Of a DNA stretch of 64,000 bases, positions 13,619 to 21,682 are shown piece after piece. Source of the stretch: Brevibacterium luteolum (lineage in GTDB: Bacteria > Actinomycetota > Actinomycetes > Actinomycetales > Brevibacteriaceae); assembly GCF_013004595.1 (NCBI RefSeq), contig NZ_JABEMC010000010.1:1-64000 (forward strand), read 5' to 3'. How positions within the stretch are numbered: position 1 is the stretch's first letter; each line of letters begins with the position of its first letter. The notes under the pieces are model-generated. The model was not told where the DNA came from. It made no database searches and saw only the letters and a program-made list of their open reading frames with translations. The position numbers and the translations under genes are program-made.

Positions 13619-14779
13619 ATGAAGGTGGTGAAGCGAGCGTACAAATTCCGCTTCTACCCGAGCCCTGAGCAAGCGGAACTGCTCAATCGGACTTTCGGGT
13701 GCGTGCGCCTCGTCTTCAATCTGGCTCTACAAGCGCGGACAGCGGCATGGGAGTCGAACCGATGCAATCTGAGCTATGCGGATACTTCTGCGATGTTGAC
13801 TCAATGGAAGCGGAGTAGCGAGTTTGCGTTCCTCAACGAGGTCTCTTCGGTGCCTCTCCAACAGTCGCTGCGTCATCTTGAATTCGGCTTCAAGCGATTC
13901 TGGAAGAGGCAAAGTGCCTATCCTCGTTTCAAGTCCAAGCGCAGGTCGAAAGCGAGTGCCGAGTTCACCGCCTCAGCATTCCGCTGGGATGGCAAGCAGC
14001 TTCGACTGGCGAAAATGGCTGAGCCTTTGGACATTGTGTGGTCTCGCTCGCTGCCAGCCAACGCCGTTCCGTCGACGGTGACAGTGTCGCGTGATCGAGC
14101 TGATCGTTGGTTCGTATCGATCCTGGTAGAGGAGACACTCGCAGAGCCACCAGCCGCTAAGAGCAATGCAGTCGGTATAGACCTAGGCTTAGAATCTCTA
14201 GCGGTACTGTCAACCGGAGAGAAGATTGACAATCCTCGCCATGAACGCAGGGATCGAACTCGCCTGATCCGGGCCCAGAGACGCCTAGCGCGCAAGCAGA
14301 AGGGGTCAGCCAACTTTTCCAAGGCAAGAGTGAAGGTCGCGCGCATCTATGCTGCGATTGCTGATCGCCGTCGAGACCATTTGCACAAGCTCACCACTCG
14401 ACTCGTCCGCGAGAACCAAACGGTCGTGATCGAGAACCTGTCAATTCAACAGCTGAGGGCCAAGGGAGGGAGACGGAAGACGGGCTTGAACCGCGCAATG
14501 TCAGATGCGTCATGGGGAGCGTTGCGATCCATGCTGGAATACAAGTCTCGATGGCATGACAGGAATTTAATTGTCATCGATCCGTGGTTCCCATCGACGC
14601 AGTTGTGCTCCCAGTGCGGTGCAGTTACTGGTCCTAAGAGTCTTGATGTGAGGGCGTGGACGTGTGCCTGCGGCACACACCACGATCGCGACGTAAACGC
14701 CGCAACGAACATACTGGCTGCGGGGCTCGCAGTCACTGTCTGTGGAGATGGAAGAAGACTTGTTCGCGGTCACGCGTGA
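13619..14779 (+). CDS. tnpB: TnpB RNA-guided nuclease (IS200/IS605-type OrfB)
   Basis: This 386-residue TnpB starts with the OrfB_IS605 N-terminal domain (KRAYKFRFYPSPEQAELLNRTFG). The split RuvC site appears complete: Asp188 in VGIDLGLESLAVLS, Glu272 in VVIENLSIQQL and Asp358 in DRDVNAATN. A zinc ribbon is formed by Cys330/Cys333 and Cys349/Cys351. These proteins cut DNA next to a short target motif using a guide RNA made from the element's right end. No TnpA transposase is present, so it is a solitary, non-autonomous copy. Codon use is less GC-rich than in its neighbours, consistent with transfer. It lies between PucR and IclR genes and interrupts neither. Confidence 0.92.
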   Translation: MKVVKRAYKFRFYPSPEQAELLNRTFGCVRLVFNLALQARTAAWESNRCNLSYADTSAMLTQWKRSSEFAFLNEVSSVPLQQSLRHLEFGFKRFWKRQSAYPRFKSKRRSKASAEFTASAFRWDGKQLRLAKMAEPLDIVWSRSLPANAVPSTVTVSRDRADRWFVSILVEETLAEPPAAKSNAVGIDLGLESLAVLSTGEKIDNPRHERRDRTRLIRAQRRLARKQKGSANFSKARVKVARIYAAIADRRRDHLHKLTTRLVRENQTVVIENLSIQQLRAKGGRRKTGLNRAMSDASWGALRSMLEYKSRWHDRNLIVIDPWFPSTQLCSQCGAVTGPKSLDVRAWTCACGTHHDRDVNAATNILAAGLAVTVCGDGRRLVRGHA

Positions 14780-14853: not shown

Positions 14854-14986
14854 CAAGTGGTATGACTGGATGGCCGATGCCTTCCTGATCAATCGTGGTG
14901 CTGAAATCGCGAAGCATAGTGGGTGCGTTCACCGCCGGTGACACAGTATGGAATGCTTGCGACTGCCGCTGGCGTACCCTGAATCT

Positions 14987-15775
14987 ATGAACTCGACAGA
15001 CAGCTCAGTCGCAGATTCCCGCGCCTTCGAGCCCGGTGCGGACTCTGCGCTCGTGCGTGGGCTGCGGGTGCTCACCCACGTTGCTGAAGGCGGGGAGGTC
15101 AGTGCCCAGGATGTCTCCGCAGAGCTCGGCCTGCCGCTGTCGACGACGTACCGCTACCTTAAGACACTCACCGACTTCGACCTCATCGAAAAGCAGCACG
15201 GCCGCTTCGTTCCCGGTTGGCGGCTCTCGGCCTGGTCCGGCCAGGACATCACCCGCACCCGGCTCATCGAAGTCGGCCACTCCTTCCTGCAGGGTCTGAC
15301 GAATCGCACCGGCAAGGTCTCAGTGCTCACCGTGCGCGCCGGGCACAATGCCGTGTGTCTGCGTCAAGTCTCCCCGAGCGCCGATACTGGTATCTCGTTT
15401 CGCATCAACCAGGTGCTGCCGATCTACCGCGGTGCCGGTCAGCGCGTGTTGCTCGCCTACGCACCGCCGGCTGTCATCGAAGGCGCACTGCGCGCTGTCA
15501 GCGCTGATGCCGCCGCTGATCACGCAGCACTCGCCCGCCGTCAGCACCTCATTGCCGATCTCAAGGACATCCGCGCCCGCGGGGTCGCGGTCTCCCACGG
15601 CGAGCTCATCGACAACGCCATCGCCGTGGCCGCCCCCGTGCGCGTCGGCGGAGAGGTCATCTGCTCCCTAGCTGTAGCCGGGCAAGCCGACCGAGTGCCG
15701 GCGAACCTCGTGAAGTCACTGACGCCGGTTCTCACCTCCGCAGCTGCAGAACTCGGCGCCGAACTCTCCACCTGA
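14987..15775 (+). CDS. IclR-family transcriptional regulator
   Basis: From ATG 14987 this is a 262-residue regulator (an in-frame ATG at 14948 is the alternative). The N-terminal winged helix (about residues 18-75, with VSAQDVSAELGLPLSTTYRYLKTLTDFDLIE) is followed by the IclR effector-binding domain (about 90-255, with RAGHNAVCLRQVSP and the conserved RGVAVSHGEL segment). IclR proteins usually control the adjacent catabolic genes; here these are the P450 and ammonia-lyase on the same strand. An imperfect palindrome TTCACCGCCGGTGAC sits about 45 bases upstream. Confidence 0.88.
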   Translation: MNSTDSSVADSRAFEPGADSALVRGLRVLTHVAEGGEVSAQDVSAELGLPLSTTYRYLKTLTDFDLIEKQHGRFVPGWRLSAWSGQDITRTRLIEVGHSFLQGLTNRTGKVSVLTVRAGHNAVCLRQVSPSADTGISFRINQVLPIYRGAGQRVLLAYAPPAVIEGALRAVSADAAADHAALARRQHLIADLKDIRARGVAVSHGELIDNAIAVAAPVRVGGEVICSLAVAGQADRVPANLVKSLTPVLTSAAAELGAELST

Positions 15776-15955: not shown

Positions 15956-17152
15956 ATGACGGCCCTCACCACGACCACGCTGGCCGATGACCCGTACTCA
16001 CCTGAGGTGCTGCGCGACCCGTACCCGTTCCTCACCCGCCTGCGCGAAGCCGGGCCGGCAGCCTGGCTGGAGAAGCACCAGGTCCACGCCTTCGGCCGCG
16101 ACGCCGAGGTGCGCGAGATCCTTGAGGACTGGGAGACCTACATCTCCGGAGCCGGGGTCGGGATTGTCAACATCCACCACAACCCGCCGCTGCGCAAGCC
16201 GGGCATCCTCGAAGTCGACCCGCCCATCCACACGCGCATGCGCGAGGCCATGACCGGGGTCATCAACCCCCGCAGGCTGCGCCCGCTGCGCAAGGGCTTC
16301 GCCACCTATGCCAAGACCGTGCTCGACGATGTGCTCTCCGGTGACTGCGCCTTCGACGCCGCCGAGGTGGCCGAACGGTTCGTGCTGCGCGTCTTCGGCG
16401 ACGCGGTCGGGATCCCGCGCGAGGGCCGGGCGGAGAACCTACCGGCCCAGGGAGCGGCGAACTTCGCGACCTTCGGCCCACAGAATGACGTGGCCCGGGC
16501 CCATATCGAAGCCGCAGAGGGCACATATGACTGGGTGCTGGAGAACTGCGCTCGCGAGGTGCTCAACACCTCGGGAATGGGCGCCCAGATCTGGGAGTTC
16601 GCCGACGCCGGGACGATCGACGCTGATGAGGCCACGCTGCTGGTGCGCGCGATGCTCTCAGCCGGGCTCGACACGACGATCTTCGCAATCACCAACACCC
16701 TCAATGCCCTGGCCCAGCACCCTGACCAGTACGCCCGCGTGCACGCCGACCCAAGCCTGGCGAAGTACGCGATCGACGAGGCGTTCAGGTGGGACTCGCC
16801 TTTCCAGTCCTTCTACCGCACCACGAGCCGAAACACGACGATCGGCGGAGTCGACCTGCCGGCTGAAACGAAGGTTCTCGTCTTCCCCGGCTCGGCCAAC
16901 CGCGATGAGTCGAAGTGGGGTCCTGATGCGCATGAGTTCCGTATCGACCGGGATGCCAGCGGGCACCTGACCTTCGGCATGGGCATCCACCAGTGCGTCG
17001 GCCAGCCGATCTCGCGGATGGAGATGGATGCGTTCTTCTCCGCCTTCTGCGCCCGGGTCGCACACCTCGAACCGACCGCCGAACCCGAGCCGCTCATCCA
17101 CACCACACTGCGCTCCTATACCTCGGTGCCGCTGAAAGCGACACCTGCCTAA
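15956..17152 (+). CDS. Cytochrome P450, CYP199-like
   Basis: This soluble 398-residue bacterial P450 starts at ATG 15956 behind CGGAGG. The oxygen-activating I-helix AGLDTT is at 236-241, the ExxR pair is Glu275/Arg278 in DEAFRWD, and the haem ligand is Cys347 in FGMGIHQCVGQ. The stretch VLVFPGSANRDESKWGPDAHEF and the GVGIVN...KPGILEVDPPIH region resemble CYP199A and related class I P450s that oxidise or O-demethylate para-substituted benzoates and cinnamates. No redox partner is fused; the phthalate-reductase-type flavoprotein at 20513-21682 could serve. The likely substrate is an aromatic acid, by inference. Confidence 0.88.
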   Translation: MTALTTTTLADDPYSPEVLRDPYPFLTRLREAGPAAWLEKHQVHAFGRDAEVREILEDWETYISGAGVGIVNIHHNPPLRKPGILEVDPPIHTRMREAMTGVINPRRLRPLRKGFATYAKTVLDDVLSGDCAFDAAEVAERFVLRVFGDAVGIPREGRAENLPAQGAANFATFGPQNDVARAHIEAAEGTYDWVLENCAREVLNTSGMGAQIWEFADAGTIDADEATLLVRAMLSAGLDTTIFAITNTLNALAQHPDQYARVHADPSLAKYAIDEAFRWDSPFQSFYRTTSRNTTIGGVDLPAETKVLVFPGSANRDESKWGPDAHEFRIDRDASGHLTFGMGIHQCVGQPISRMEMDAFFSAFCARVAHLEPTAEPEPLIHTTLRSYTSVPLKATPA

Positions 17153-17310: not shown

Positions 17311-19053
17311 ATGACCGCACGTCCGCACTCGAACCTGCACCACGCTACTGCTCCGCTGCCCGGCCAGCCGGCCTCGACCGAGGAGTTCGACGGCCCGGTG
17401 CTCACTCTCGGCGAATCCGATCTGAGCCTGGCCGAGATGGTCGACGTCGCCCGGCACCGCCGCCGTATCACCCTCGCCCCGGCCGCCCAGGAGGCCTGCC
17501 GGGAGTCACGCGCCTGGCTCGATGATGTCATCGACCGAATGAAGGCAGGCGAGGACGTCGAGGCGATCTACTCGGTCAACACCGGTTTCGGCTCACTGGC
17601 CGGCCGGCAGGCGTTCCCCAGTGCCAGCGATGCCGCGGAGCTCTCCCGCCGGCTCATCCTCGCTGATGCCGCCGGCATCGGCCGGCTCGTCGATGAAGAG
17701 GTCGTCCGGGCCACCATGCTCATCCGCATCCAGTCGCTCATCGCCGGTCATTCGGCGATCTCCTGGCCGCTGGTCGAGGGGCTCGTCGCGATGCTGAATC
17801 ACGATGTGTGGCCGGCGGTGCCCGAATACGGTTCGCTCGGCGCTTCCGGAGATCTCATCCCGCTGGCCCACATCGCCCTCGTTCTCACCGGCCCGCCGAC
17901 CGGTGAGGATAAGCCTGAGGATTCCGGTGAGGCGGTGCTTGACGGGAAGATCGTGCCCGGCACCGAGGCGATGGCCGCCGCGGGCATCGACCGGGTGCCG
18001 GTCGGCGCCAAGGACGGGCTCGCACTTCTCAACGGCACCTCGTTCTCCCTCGCCCAGACCGCGCTCGCCGCCTGGGATGCGACGACGCTGTTGGAGACAG
18101 CGCTGGTGACGGCGTCGATGACGATCGAGGCGCTGCTGGGCTTCGGTGATGCGTTCATCGACGAACTGCACACTGTACGCAGGCAGCCCGGCCAGATCGC
18201 CGTCGCCGCCCGGATGCGGGAGCTCATGGCCGACTCCCAGCTCATCACCGGCAGCCGGGCCGCCGACCCGGACCGGCAGCCGCCGCAGGATGCGTACTCG
18301 CTGCGCTGTGTGCCGCAGGTGTTCGGCCCGGTCGCTGACACGCTCGACTTCACCATCGGGATCATCGAACGCGAACTCAACGCCGCAACCGACAACCCGC
18401 TCGTCTTCCCGCAGCTGCCGCGCCCACTCAAGGCCGTCTCCGGCGGGAACTTCCACGCCGAATACGTCGCCTTCGCCGCCGATTTCCTCTCGATCGCGGT
18501 CACCGAGATCGGCAACATCACCGAACGGCGGATCTTCCGCCTCGACGACGGGACGCTGAACCGTGGCCTGCCCGACATGCTCGTCGACTCCGCGCAGGTC
18601 GGCATGGACTGCGGGTTCATGCTGCCGCAGTATCTGGCCGCGGCCCTCGTCTCCGACTGCAAGACCCTTGCACACCCGGATGCCGTCGATTCGATCCCGA
18701 CGTCTGCGAACCAAGAGGACCACGTCTCGATGGCCAACAACGCCGGCCGTCACCTGCGCCAGATCGTGGCCAACATCGAAGCCGTCGTCGGCATCGAACT
18801 CCTCATGGCCGTCCAGGCCCTCGAACTGCGCGTAGCCGCCGGGCGTCCCGACGGCCGGTCCGTGACCCGCGAGGAGATCTCGTCTGCCGGCCGGCGCGTC
18901 ATCGACATGCTGCGCTCGACGACCGACACGCAGGGCCGCCCGATCGCCCACCTGACCCAGGACGTCGTGCTCTACCCGCAGGTCCGCACCGCAACTGCTC
19001 TCGTCAAGGATGGGGCTGTCGTGCGCGCCGCGGATGCTCAGGTGGCGCGCTGA
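17311..19053 (+). CDS. MIO-dependent aromatic amino acid lyase (HAL/PAL family), specificity unknown
   Basis: This 580-residue enzyme eliminates ammonia from an amino acid to give an aryl-acrylate. The MIO cofactor triad Ala178-Ser179-Gly180 lies in GSLGASGDLIPLAH. Catalytic Tyr87 (YSVNTGFG), the Asn of LLNGTSFS, QDAYSLRC with its carboxylate-binding Arg, and NQEDHVSM are all present. It aligns best with histidine ammonia-lyase, but the selectivity pair that is Ser-His in HAL (LVLSHAAGIG), and Phe-Leu or His-Leu in PAL/TAL, is Ala118-Asp119 here. It is therefore unlikely to be ordinary hutH, and no other hut gene is nearby. It lies between the P450 and an MFS carrier. Confidence 0.85.
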   Translation: MTARPHSNLHHATAPLPGQPASTEEFDGPVLTLGESDLSLAEMVDVARHRRRITLAPAAQEACRESRAWLDDVIDRMKAGEDVEAIYSVNTGFGSLAGRQAFPSASDAAELSRRLILADAAGIGRLVDEEVVRATMLIRIQSLIAGHSAISWPLVEGLVAMLNHDVWPAVPEYGSLGASGDLIPLAHIALVLTGPPTGEDKPEDSGEAVLDGKIVPGTEAMAAAGIDRVPVGAKDGLALLNGTSFSLAQTALAAWDATTLLETALVTASMTIEALLGFGDAFIDELHTVRRQPGQIAVAARMRELMADSQLITGSRAADPDRQPPQDAYSLRCVPQVFGPVADTLDFTIGIIERELNAATDNPLVFPQLPRPLKAVSGGNFHAEYVAFAADFLSIAVTEIGNITERRIFRLDDGTLNRGLPDMLVDSAQVGMDCGFMLPQYLAAALVSDCKTLAHPDAVDSIPTSANQEDHVSMANNAGRHLRQIVANIEAVVGIELLMAVQALELRVAAGRPDGRSVTREEISSAGRRVIDMLRSTTDTQGRPIAHLTQDVVLYPQVRTATALVKDGAVVRAADAQVAR

Positions 19054-19286: not shown

Positions 19287-20510
19287 ATGACCGCCCAGAG
19301 TGAGCCGTTTCGCACCAGCCGAGGCCTTGATGCGCTCGCGCTGGTCTGCCTCGTGCTCATCGCCGCGAGTCTGCGTCCAGCGGCCACCTCGCTGGGCCCG
19401 GTGCTGGCCGAGGTCACCGACGCCTTCGGCCTGACGGCCTGGCAGTCCGGGCTGCTCACTGCCTTCCCCGGCCTCGTCTTCGCCGCCTGCGGACTCATCG
19501 CCTTGCCGCTGCTGGAACGGGCAGGCCTGTTCGGGGCGCTGACGATCTCGTGTGCGTGCACGGCCACCGGTGTCATCGCCCGCGCCCTGTCGGACACCTG
19601 GCCGGGTTTCGCGACGCTGACGGTGCTCGCGCTCATCGGCATGGCGCTGGGCAACGTCGTCCTCCTCGTCTACGTCAAGGCCCGCTTCCCGGCCCGCGGC
19701 CAGCTCGCCGCGACCGTCTTCACCGTCTCGCTCGGCCTCGGCGCCACCCTGCCCTCGCTGCTGACCGCCCCGCTGACCGGGCAGGCTGGCACATGGCGGG
19801 TGGGTCTGGGCTTCTGGGCGGTCATCCCCGTCACTGCTCTGCTCGCCTGGCTCGTGCTGCGGGCTGCCGGCTCGGTGCCGCGCCTGGCTGGTCCTCCCGC
19901 TCCCGAGGCGGGCGGCACCCGCGTGCGCAAGCGCATCGTGGCCTCGCCGAAGGCCCGCTGGATGGCGCTGTTCTTCGGCTTCCAGTCCGTCAACGCCTAT
20001 GTGCAGTTCGGGTGGCTGCCCCAGATCTACCGCGACGGCGGCCTCGATGCCGTCGCCGCCGGGATCATGATCGGCATCGTCGCCTTCTCCGGCATCCCCG
20101 GCGGGTTCCTCGCCCCGCAGCTCATCGTCCGCGACATCTACCCACGCGCTTTCATCATCAGCTTCGCCGCCGCCTCGACCGCCGGCTACACCGGCCTGCT
20201 CATCAGCCCCGCTGCCGCACCGGTGATGTGGGCAGTGCTGCTGGCCTACGGCGGCTTCGCCTTCCCTGCCGTGCTCGCGCTCATCACCCGGCGCACGACC
20301 GATGTCACCGTCACCGCCTCGACCTCGGCATTCGTCCAGTCCGGCGGTTACATCCTCGCGGCCGTCTGCCCGATGATCGTCGGTGCGCTGCTCGGTCTGA
20401 CCGGCGGCTGGACGGCCCCGATCGTCTTCATGATCGGCATCAGCGTGCTCATGGGGCTGACCGGCGCACTGGCGGCAGCGCCGGGCAGCGTCGACGAGGA
20501 GCTCGTCTAG
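19287..20510 (+). CDS. MFS transporter, CynX/NimT-like
   Basis: This 407-residue inner-membrane carrier has twelve predicted helices. The N-terminal ASLRPAATSLGPVLAEVTDAFGLTAWQSGLLTAFPGLVFA stretch is characteristic of the CynX/NimT (cyanate / 2-nitroimidazole) branch of the MFS, whose members carry small organic anions or nitrogen heterocycles. AGAAGGAG lies upstream of ATG 19287. It follows the lyase on the same strand and is probably the uptake or efflux partner of that pathway. It converges on the reductase with only two bases between the stops. Confidence 0.88.
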   Translation: MTAQSEPFRTSRGLDALALVCLVLIAASLRPAATSLGPVLAEVTDAFGLTAWQSGLLTAFPGLVFAACGLIALPLLERAGLFGALTISCACTATGVIARALSDTWPGFATLTVLALIGMALGNVVLLVYVKARFPARGQLAATVFTVSLGLGATLPSLLTAPLTGQAGTWRVGLGFWAVIPVTALLAWLVLRAAGSVPRLAGPPAPEAGGTRVRKRIVASPKARWMALFFGFQSVNAYVQFGWLPQIYRDGGLDAVAAGIMIGIVAFSGIPGGFLAPQLIVRDIYPRAFIISFAAASTAGYTGLLISPAAAPVMWAVLLAYGGFAFPAVLALITRRTTDVTVTASTSAFVQSGGYILAAVCPMIVGALLGLTGGWTAPIVFMIGISVLMGLTGALAAAPGSVDEELV

Positions 20511-20512
20511 GC

Positions 20513-21682
20513 TCAGATGTCGAGGACGAGCCGGTCGGTCTGGGCACGTGAGACGCAGATCATCATCGTCTCCTGCGCCTCCTTCTCCTCACCGCTGAGC
20601 ACATGATCGCGGTGATCGGCCCGCCCCTGCAGGATCGTCGTCTCACACGTCCCGCACGTGCCCTTCTGACATGAGCTCAGCGTCCGCACCCCGGCAGCAC
20701 CCAGGGCTGCGAGGATCGACTGACCGCAGGCCACCTGCACTTCCGCGCCACTGGTCGTCTCGACGGTGAAGGCGGTATCCGCGCCCGAGGCGCCGGCCGC
20801 TTCGGCCTGACCGCTGCCGGTGGCCTCGACTGCCGGTGGGGCGTCGTCGTCGAAGTCCTCGAAGATCACCTCGATGCCCTCGGCCTCCATCCCGGCGGCG
20901 AGCGCGCGCATGAGCGGAACCGGCCCGCACGTGTAGACGACCGGACCGCACGCGGAGGCGACGGGACTGCCGCCGGTGCCCTCCGCCTCGGGCGCGGTGC
21001 TGCCGGACGGATGCGTGCTGGCGGTGGCGAACCAGTCGCGGGCCAAGGCAACGACATCGGGCCGACCGGTCTCGGCGGTGATGCGCACGTCGACGCACTC
21101 GGAGCCGTGGGAGTCGATGAGGTCGTCGGCGAAGGCCATGAGTTCGTTGCGGCGGCCGACGTAGATGAGGTGCCAGTCGAGGCCGGCGTCCTCGGCGTCG
21201 TGGATCATCGCGGAGATCGGGGTGATGCCGATCCCGCCGGCGACGAACAGCATCGGCGAGCGGCGCTGGTAGCCGAAGGTGTCGCGCGGGCCGCGGATGA
21301 GCAGGCTGGTGCAGTCGGCGAGGTGCTCGTGCAGCCAGTGGGAGCCGCCGCGGCCGGTCGGCTCGTTGAGGATCGCGACCCGCCAGCCGTCGCTGCCATC
21401 GGGTTTCGAGCACAGCGAGTAGTGGCGGATCGCCGGGCCGTCGGGCAGCGGGATCGCGACTTCGAGGTGCGCGCCGGGGGTGAACGCCGGGTCAGCGCCC
21501 AGCGGCGGGGCGAAGGTGATGGACAGGATGCCGCGGGCGACGGTCGTCAGTGATTCGATGCGGGCAGGTCTGAAGCCCTGCCGGATGAGCATGTCGATGT
21601 CCGGTCCGTCGAAGCTCGTGATCGACGGGCTGCCGGCGAGCGGCTGGGCCGGCTCGGTGCTGGTGTCTGCGAGTGCTCTCAC
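20513..21682 (-). CDS. Phthalate-dioxygenase-reductase-type oxidoreductase (flavin, NAD, 2Fe-2S)
   Basis: This 389-residue electron-transfer protein has a flavin-binding barrel (about 45-150, with HYSLCSKPDG), an NAD-binding domain (about 150-300, AGGIGITPISAMI and YTCGPVPLM) and a C-terminal plant-type [2Fe-2S] ferredoxin with CQKGTCGTC plus a distal Cys in MMICVSRA. The start is GTG 21682 with AGGAGG eight bases upstream; the long upstream open frame is antisense to the next gene. Such single-chain reductases feed Rieske oxygenases or P450s. No Rieske oxygenase is present, so the neighbouring P450 is the obvious partner. A Pro/Ala-rich linker separates the NAD and ferredoxin domains. Confidence 0.87.
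   Translation of the reverse strand: MRALADTSTEPAQPLAGSPSITSFDGPDIDMLIRQGFRPARIESLTTVARGILSITFAPPLGADPAFTPGAHLEVAIPLPDGPAIRHYSLCSKPDGSDGWRVAILNEPTGRGGSHWLHEHLADCTSLLIRGPRDTFGYQRRSPMLFVAGGIGITPISAMIHDAEDAGLDWHLIYVGRRNELMAFADDLIDSHGSECVDVRITAETGRPDVVALARDWFATASTHPSGSTAPEAEGTGGSPVASACGPVVYTCGPVPLMRALAAGMEAEGIEVIFEDFDDDAPPAVEATGSGQAEAAGASGADTAFTVETTSGAEVQVACGQSILAALGAAGVRTLSSCQKGTCGTCETTILQGRADHRDHVLSGEEKEAQETMMICVSRAQTDRLVLDI

Follow-up and report, generated by a model that had tools for sequence, protein, structure and literature searches.

An ammonia-lyase of Brevibacterium luteolum with Ala-Asp in place of the Ser-His pair of HutH, a candidate N-methylhistidine lyase next to a CYP199-like P450

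Introduction

To our knowledge, few natural substrates of MIO lyases are known and histidine degradation has rarely served as a template for other pathways. A lyase gene of Brevibacterium luteolum raises the question of which substrate such an enzyme takes when the residues 118 and 119, Ser-His (S-H) in HutH, are replaced by Ala-Asp (A-D), and when the gene is accompanied by a cytochrome P450. The window, i.e. the whole analysed stretch of 64,000 nucleotides (assembly GCF_013004595.1, contig NZ_JABEMC010000010.1, positions 1 to 64,000), contains the following features of this locus:

14948..15775, forward strand: IclR-family regulator, conserved beside the lyase (family profiles, locus comparison)
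15956..17152, forward strand: CYP199-like cytochrome P450, 398 aa, predicted N-demethylase (start picked by ribosome-binding site and homologues)
17311..19053, forward strand: MIO ammonia-lyase of the D/N119-C434 clade, 580 aa (ORF, family profile, tree, model)
17662..17667, forward strand: codons of Ala118-Asp119, S-H in HutH (alignment)
17842..17850, forward strand: codons of the MIO triad Ala178-Ser179-Gly180 (alignment)
18610..18612, forward strand: codon of Cys434, which co-varies with residue 119 (alignment)
19287..20510, forward strand: CynX/NimT-family MFS transporter, candidate for uptake (family profiles, locus comparison)
20513..21682, reverse strand: PDR/VanB-type reductase (FNR-like with C-terminal 2Fe-2S), predicted redox partner of the P450 (GTG start with AGGAGG)

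Results

The lyase and its active site

The lyase reading frame is open and intact and its ATG is preceded by a Shine-Dalgarno-like GAGGAG. The protein matches Pfam Lyase_aromatic (PF00221) with 528 bits and carries the Ala-Ser-Gly triad, the catalytic Tyr, LNGT and QEDH of the MIO aromatic ammonia-lyase/aminomutase family. HALs are the nearest solved structures, and the AlphaFold2 model (mean pLDDT 89.8, pTM 0.91) is matched best by the HAL of P. putida with a TM-score of 0.92-0.93 normalised on the target. The catalytic residues named in a first-pass annotation of this DNA (Tyr87, A178-S179-G180, L240-N-G-T243, S330-L-R-C333 and Q468-E-D-H471) are all kept at the numbers given there, and the Ala118-Asp119 pair that it had pointed out was confirmed by translation and alignment. 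Since this pair is invariant in 11 of 11 gene-carrying genomes of the genus, a sequencing error or a chance oddity was rejected. Residue 434, which co-varies with the loss of His119, had gone without mention; it is a Cys in the window lyase.

A lyase beside the HutH of the cell

The first-pass annotation had rightly reported that hut genes are absent near the lyase; a full canonical hut cluster lies elsewhere in the genome. It contains the second PF00221 gene of this genome (contig C19), where hutI, a hutH with S-H, a gene for a HutG-like hydrolase and hutF were found with hutU nearby. Evidently, the window lyase is not the cell's HutH. Its score of 507.6 lies below the cut-off of the NCBIfam hutH equivalog TIGR01225 (539.15) and its score of 533 above that of the broader NCBIfam subfamily PRK09367 (524), thus automatic pipelines would name it a histidine ammonia-lyase. 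S-H was found in 58 of 60 aligned lyases with His119 and in the canonical HutH loci checked, and A-D takes its place here. Neither the Phe-Leu or His-Leu pair of PAL/TAL nor a score above the PAL/TAL equivalog cut-offs was observed, and T. denticola 6S7J, taken as the reference for ergothionase, is the weakest PDB match with 24% identity in the fold alignment.

Distribution and phylogeny

Of 57 genomes of the genus, 11 (the window genome counted) carry orthologues with 77-95% identity, and outside of these none of 395 genomes drawn from the class gave a match above 348 bits (query against itself, 1260). A scan of 84,980 species genomes together with a plasmid search yielded about 40 loci of the same clade, which are 55-95% identical and spread over Actinomycetota and some Proteobacteria (Brevibacterium, Arthrobacter, Streptomyces, Pimelobacter, Agromyces, Leucobacter, Geodermatophilus, Mesorhizobium, Rhodobacteraceae and others). 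Of the named loci, that of B. gallinarum comes closest, with 95%. Within the clade A-D occurs in Brevibacterium, Cryobacterium, Salinibacterium and Agromyces, while the remaining members are mostly S-N, apart from a single S-D member and the most basal one, which is S-T. The aligned relatives outside the clade (up to about 50% identity) carry S-H in all but three cases, namely one T-H, one A-H and the A-D lyase of Acidaminobacter.

In the tree the clade is monophyletic and apart from the S-H lyases (support 100/99), and A-D forms a subclade of 9 rows with a single origin (100/99) which arose inside the S-N clade. The tree and alignment check proposed in the first-pass annotation, whether Ala-Asp marks a conserved clade, hence returned a supported subclade outside the S-H HutH, and its warning that a hutH label would mislead is upheld by the separate clade, the A-D pair and the canonical HutH elsewhere. 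Its deduction of a cationic substrate group from the acidic Asp119 found no support, as the closest sisters carry a neutral Asn with the same partner genes. Because these genes are shared and A-D arose once within the S-N clade, the charge argument was rejected. According to the alignment, the key change would rather be the replacement of a bulky His by a small Asp or Asn coupled to the exchange of Ser434 for Cys.

Co-variation of residues 119 and 434

Among 111 aligned lyases (one Cys434 sequence being without data at 119), Asp, Asn or Thr at position 119 coincides with Cys434 in 50 of 50 cases and His119 with Ser, Asn or Thr at 434 in 60 of 60, Asn or Thr being found in a few. Cys434 is present in every clade member; the position lies three residues ahead of the conserved Met437, which lines the HAL pocket. 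A-D together with Cys434 was also found in Acidaminobacter (L119), whose lyase clusters with Clostridia HALs on the tree, and C-N with Cys434 in three further Clostridia genomes (L205-L207). The double change thereby has three apparent origins, two of them in Clostridia lineages. At the same site the H82L exchange abolished the histidine activity of GkHAL (PMC11432326). Judging from the co-variation, a small Asp or Asn at 119 and Cys434 would free space for a substituent on a ring nitrogen.

Two types of neighbourhood

The loci of the clade fall into two types. Type I, to which the window belongs, comprises IclR and a CYP199-like P450, its most constant partner, with the PDR-type reductase in about 20 of 26 loci; type II is arranged as lyase-HutU-HutI-HutF, often with the same IclR. 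A homologous P450 was found in 26 of 40 loci, HutU in 11 and both in none. This mutual exclusion corresponds to a hypergeometric probability of ~1.6e-7 under the assumption of independent loci, which they are not. Parsimony on the lyase tree gives five P450/HutU switches, at least two of which are forced by well-supported branches, and the phylogeny-corrected sign test is not significant (p of 0.5 on the forced pairs), too few pairs being independent. Most naturally, the two modules would act on one and the same product of the lyase. The pairing with P450 and reductase and the alternative pairing with HutU, HutI and HutF, neither of which the first-pass annotation had noted, hold the greater part of the information about the substrate.

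Both types repeatedly have genes for polar amino-acid ABC transporters as neighbours; the CynX/NimT-family transporter adjoins the lyase only in the window genome and in B. gallinarum, other loci having other transporters. A HisC-like aminotransferase and a GlcD-like FAD dehydrogenase lie beside the lyase in some loci of each type (aminotransferase, in some cases with the dehydrogenase, in L067, L074, L076, L081, L083, L087 and L091), which suggests an entry of imidazole-lactate or -pyruvate analogues into the pathway. An S-H HutH is also encoded in 22 of 23 genomes examined over both types and HutU in 23 of 24; the type I Geodermatophilus (L092, genome G481) has neither. Since S-H HutH and HutU are kept in nearly all of these genomes, there would be no need for a further hut set acting on plain histidine.

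The NMO, GGT and nrd genes and the TnpB element near the lyase are not conserved with it and were discarded as parts of the system, as were hydantoinase A/B genes that lie upstream in B. gallinarum (L038) and are missing in the five further orthologous loci examined. The lone TnpB (IS605 OrfB-like) gene occupies positions 13619-14779 of the window (forward strand) between a PucR and the IclR gene; the same interval of B. gallinarum holds hydantoinase A/B and PucR-family genes and no TnpB.

The HutU of type II loci and the position of the modification

The type II HutU proteins form a subfamily with 66-86% identity within, 42-51% to the canonical HutU of the same genomes and 65% to the HutU adjoining the Acidaminobacter A-D lyase. 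HutU hydrates C5 of the ring, the position at which HutI then opens it, and the target of HutF is the formimino carbon (C2 of the ring). As this chemistry requires unsubstituted ring carbons, the modification should sit on a ring nitrogen. After ring opening Nτ is the terminal imino nitrogen, and an Nτ-methyl group would for this reason leave as methylamine at the HutF step; an Nπ-methyl compound would yield N-methylglutamate by HutF chemistry.

A HutU 60% identical to this subfamily was observed on Burkholderia/Paraburkholderia conjugative plasmids (L230:5164-12777 and L231), accompanied by an S-H lyase, two amidohydrolases and an M20-family hydrolase. This cluster is possibly of the ergothioneine type.

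The P450 and its reductase

The window P450 gives 336 bits to PbdA (9G9Q), and its nearest solved relatives are the CYP199 para-methoxybenzoate demethylases. The carboxylate site of PbdA, Arg84-Ser87-Ser237, by which CYP199A is recognised, is altered in the type I P450s: Ser87 is replaced by Gly and Ser237 by Ala in 26 of 26. Both active-site arginines are kept, one being Lys in L077. Due to the loss of both carboxylate serines, substrate binding must differ from that of CYP199, and by sequence the type I P450s are a subfamily separate from CYP199A. The window reductase is similar to phthalate dioxygenase reductase and to the reductase domain of CYP116B P450s. Together with a partner reductase, CYP199A enzymes carry out demethylation para to an aryl carboxylate; N-demethylation is a further activity of CYP199A4 (PMC11530827). 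By analogy, Nτ would be the para-like position of urocanate.

Discussion

From the genes, residues, clade, partners and hut genes observed, we infer substrate, product and order of steps. We lean slightly towards a lyase for a ring-N-substituted histidine, most likely Nτ-methylhistidine, whose product is demethylated by the P450 in type I loci. By ordinary MIO chemistry, as expected from the family, Nτ-methylhistidine would be converted to Nτ-methylurocanate and ammonia. The CYP199-like P450 and its PDR-type reductase would then, with O2 and NADH, turn methylurocanate into urocanate and formaldehyde, a step suggested by family chemistry and by the exchange of gene partners, and urocanate would enter the canonical HutU, HutI and so on, whose genes are present elsewhere in the genome. 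In type II loci the dedicated HutU, HutI and HutF would degrade the still-methylated product. Against this reading speak the type I Geodermatophilus with neither HutH nor HutU, the loss of both CYP199 carboxylate serines from the P450s, the HutU 60% identical to the type II subfamily that adjoins an S-H lyase on Burkholderia plasmids, and the small number of independent P450/HutU switches. We are evenly divided over the wider picture, in which N-methylhistidine is broken down first by a respecialised MIO lyase and then by a P450 that demethylates methylurocanate, this route is exchangeable with a dedicated methyl-hut pathway, and the exchange of His119 for Asp or Asn with S434C has evolved repeatedly as a specificity switch in the HAL family.

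The comparative evidence fits any ring-N substituent and leaves the nitrogen unfixed, therefore Nπ-methylhistidine (from anserine) or another ring-N-alkyl histidine, relieved of its group by the P450, has to be weighed. Such a substrate is unlikely: N-methylglutamate would be expected from it, yet the subset of neighbour genes examined contained no N-methylglutamate dehydrogenase, the preference of CYP199 for a group para to the side chain would resemble Nτ, and bacteria are already known to degrade Nτ-methylhistidine (Beliaeva 2022, as far as related in PMC11432326). A second, isofunctional histidine lyase (HutH2) with a tolerated pair, next to a P450 acting on something unrelated, would agree with the HALs as closest solved and family matches and with the hut-like operons of the type II relatives. 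We consider it doubtful, since an S-H HutH and HutU are already found in nearly every genome, known HALs are killed by loss of the corresponding His (PMC11432326), the pair co-varies with residue 434, and the P450 is the steadiest type I partner.

Degradation of hercynine, ergothioneine or S-methyl-ergothioneine, that is of an α-N-trimethyl or 2-thio histidine, is improbable. One type II HutU does score slightly higher for S-methylthiourocanate hydratase than for HutU, and the convergent Clostridia C-N lyases adjoin MTTB-family methyltransferases. However, the scores stay far under the family cut-offs (645 vs 880; 595 vs 930), a HutF step following HutI calls for a ring C2 without modification, ordinary urocanate would result from a plain α-N-trimethyl substrate and make a separate HutU needless, and the match to ergothionase is distant (24%). 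A lyase of the phenylpropanoid type acting on a methoxylated aromatic amino acid, e.g. O-methyltyrosine, with the P450 O-demethylating the cinnamate, would suit the O-demethylation of para-methoxybenzoates by CYP199 enzymes (PMC11530827). Such a lyase we regard as highly improbable, because the S-N sister lyases are coupled to HutU, HutI and HutF, for which an imidazole ring is needed, HisC-like aminotransferases recur, and the pair is unlike that of PAL/TAL.

Several related lyases were met alongside. HAL-family proteins that lack exactly the Ala-Ser-Gly triad (GSLGASGDL to GSLGY-L) but keep S-H and QEDH are encoded at:

L040:7783-9330, forward strand: triad-deleted HAL-family protein
L041:7416-9062, reverse strand: triad-deleted HAL-family protein
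L232:9965-11503, forward strand: triad-deleted HAL-family protein (Priestia megaterium plasmid)

The Brevibacterium copies lie beside BCCT betaine transporters and pass the hutH cut-off; the proteins may be MIO-free trimethylamine lyases of the hercynine/ergothionase kind. Two Clostridia loci (L226:7875-18581 and L228:1539-12110) have a Cys-Asn lyase with Cys434, next to which two MTTB-family methyltransferases and an iron-sulfur protein are encoded, together with HutI, FtcD, FchA and HutU, the full set being annotated in L226. They may represent an anaerobic way of demethylation that parallels the P450 route. The 3.6 Mb genome of Acidaminobacter hydrogenoformans (G482) gave eight PF00221 matches, some of them fragments, and three urocanases, and is an unusual expansion of histidine-type lyases. 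A search among plasmids for the Nτ-methylhistidine lyase of Bacillus returned only S-H in the Priestia and Cytobacillus plasmid lyases.

3-Methylhistidine is a major waste product of muscle protein and a clinical marker of muscle breakdown, and muscle protein is a possible source of N-methylated histidine. If the proposed methylhistidine route is true, an oxidative branch is added to the breakdown of 3-methylhistidine, a two-residue signature separates methylhistidine lyases from HutH in annotation, dozens of hutH labels are corrected in Arthrobacter, Brevibacterium and Streptomyces, and new biocatalysts for N-alkyl histidines become available. Our literature searches found no Ala-Asp HAL, no methylhistidine P450 and no lyase-P450 combination of type I.

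Among known systems, HutH (EC 4.3.1.3; P. putida 1B8F, T. acidophilum 7TQR, GkHAL) shares with the window lyase the fold, the MIO triad, the catalytic Tyr, Asn, Gln, Tyr, Arg and Glu positions, the conserved Met (437 in the window lyase) and, for 1B8F, about 37% identity, whereas A-D (S-N in the sisters), Cys for Ser at 434, the location outside a hut operon and the score below the hutH equivalog cut-off set the lyase apart. CYP199A (PbdA/PbdB and CYP199A4; PMC11530827) is alike in P450 family by sequence, in the separate reductase and in both arginines, and unlike in that all 26 type I P450s have Gly and Ala for the carboxylate-binding serines. The ergothionase and the thiourocanate and S-methylthiourocanate hydratase pathways likewise recruited a HAL-like lyase and a HutU paralogue for a modified histidine, but the clade lyase is only distantly related to ergothionase and the type II HutU stays well below the cut-offs of those families. 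A further known system is the bacterial degradation of Nτ-methylhistidine reported by Beliaeva, Atac & Seebeck 2022, as described in PMC11432326, PMC11591506 and PMC9960084. To the extent of these descriptions, the proposed substrate and the lyase step are the same and the type II relatives share the HAL-HutU-HutI logic, in contrast to type I, with P450 and reductase in place of a dedicated hydratase and imidazolonase, and to the HutF carried by type II loci. By this analogy, the type II loci may be the actinobacterial form of that pathway.
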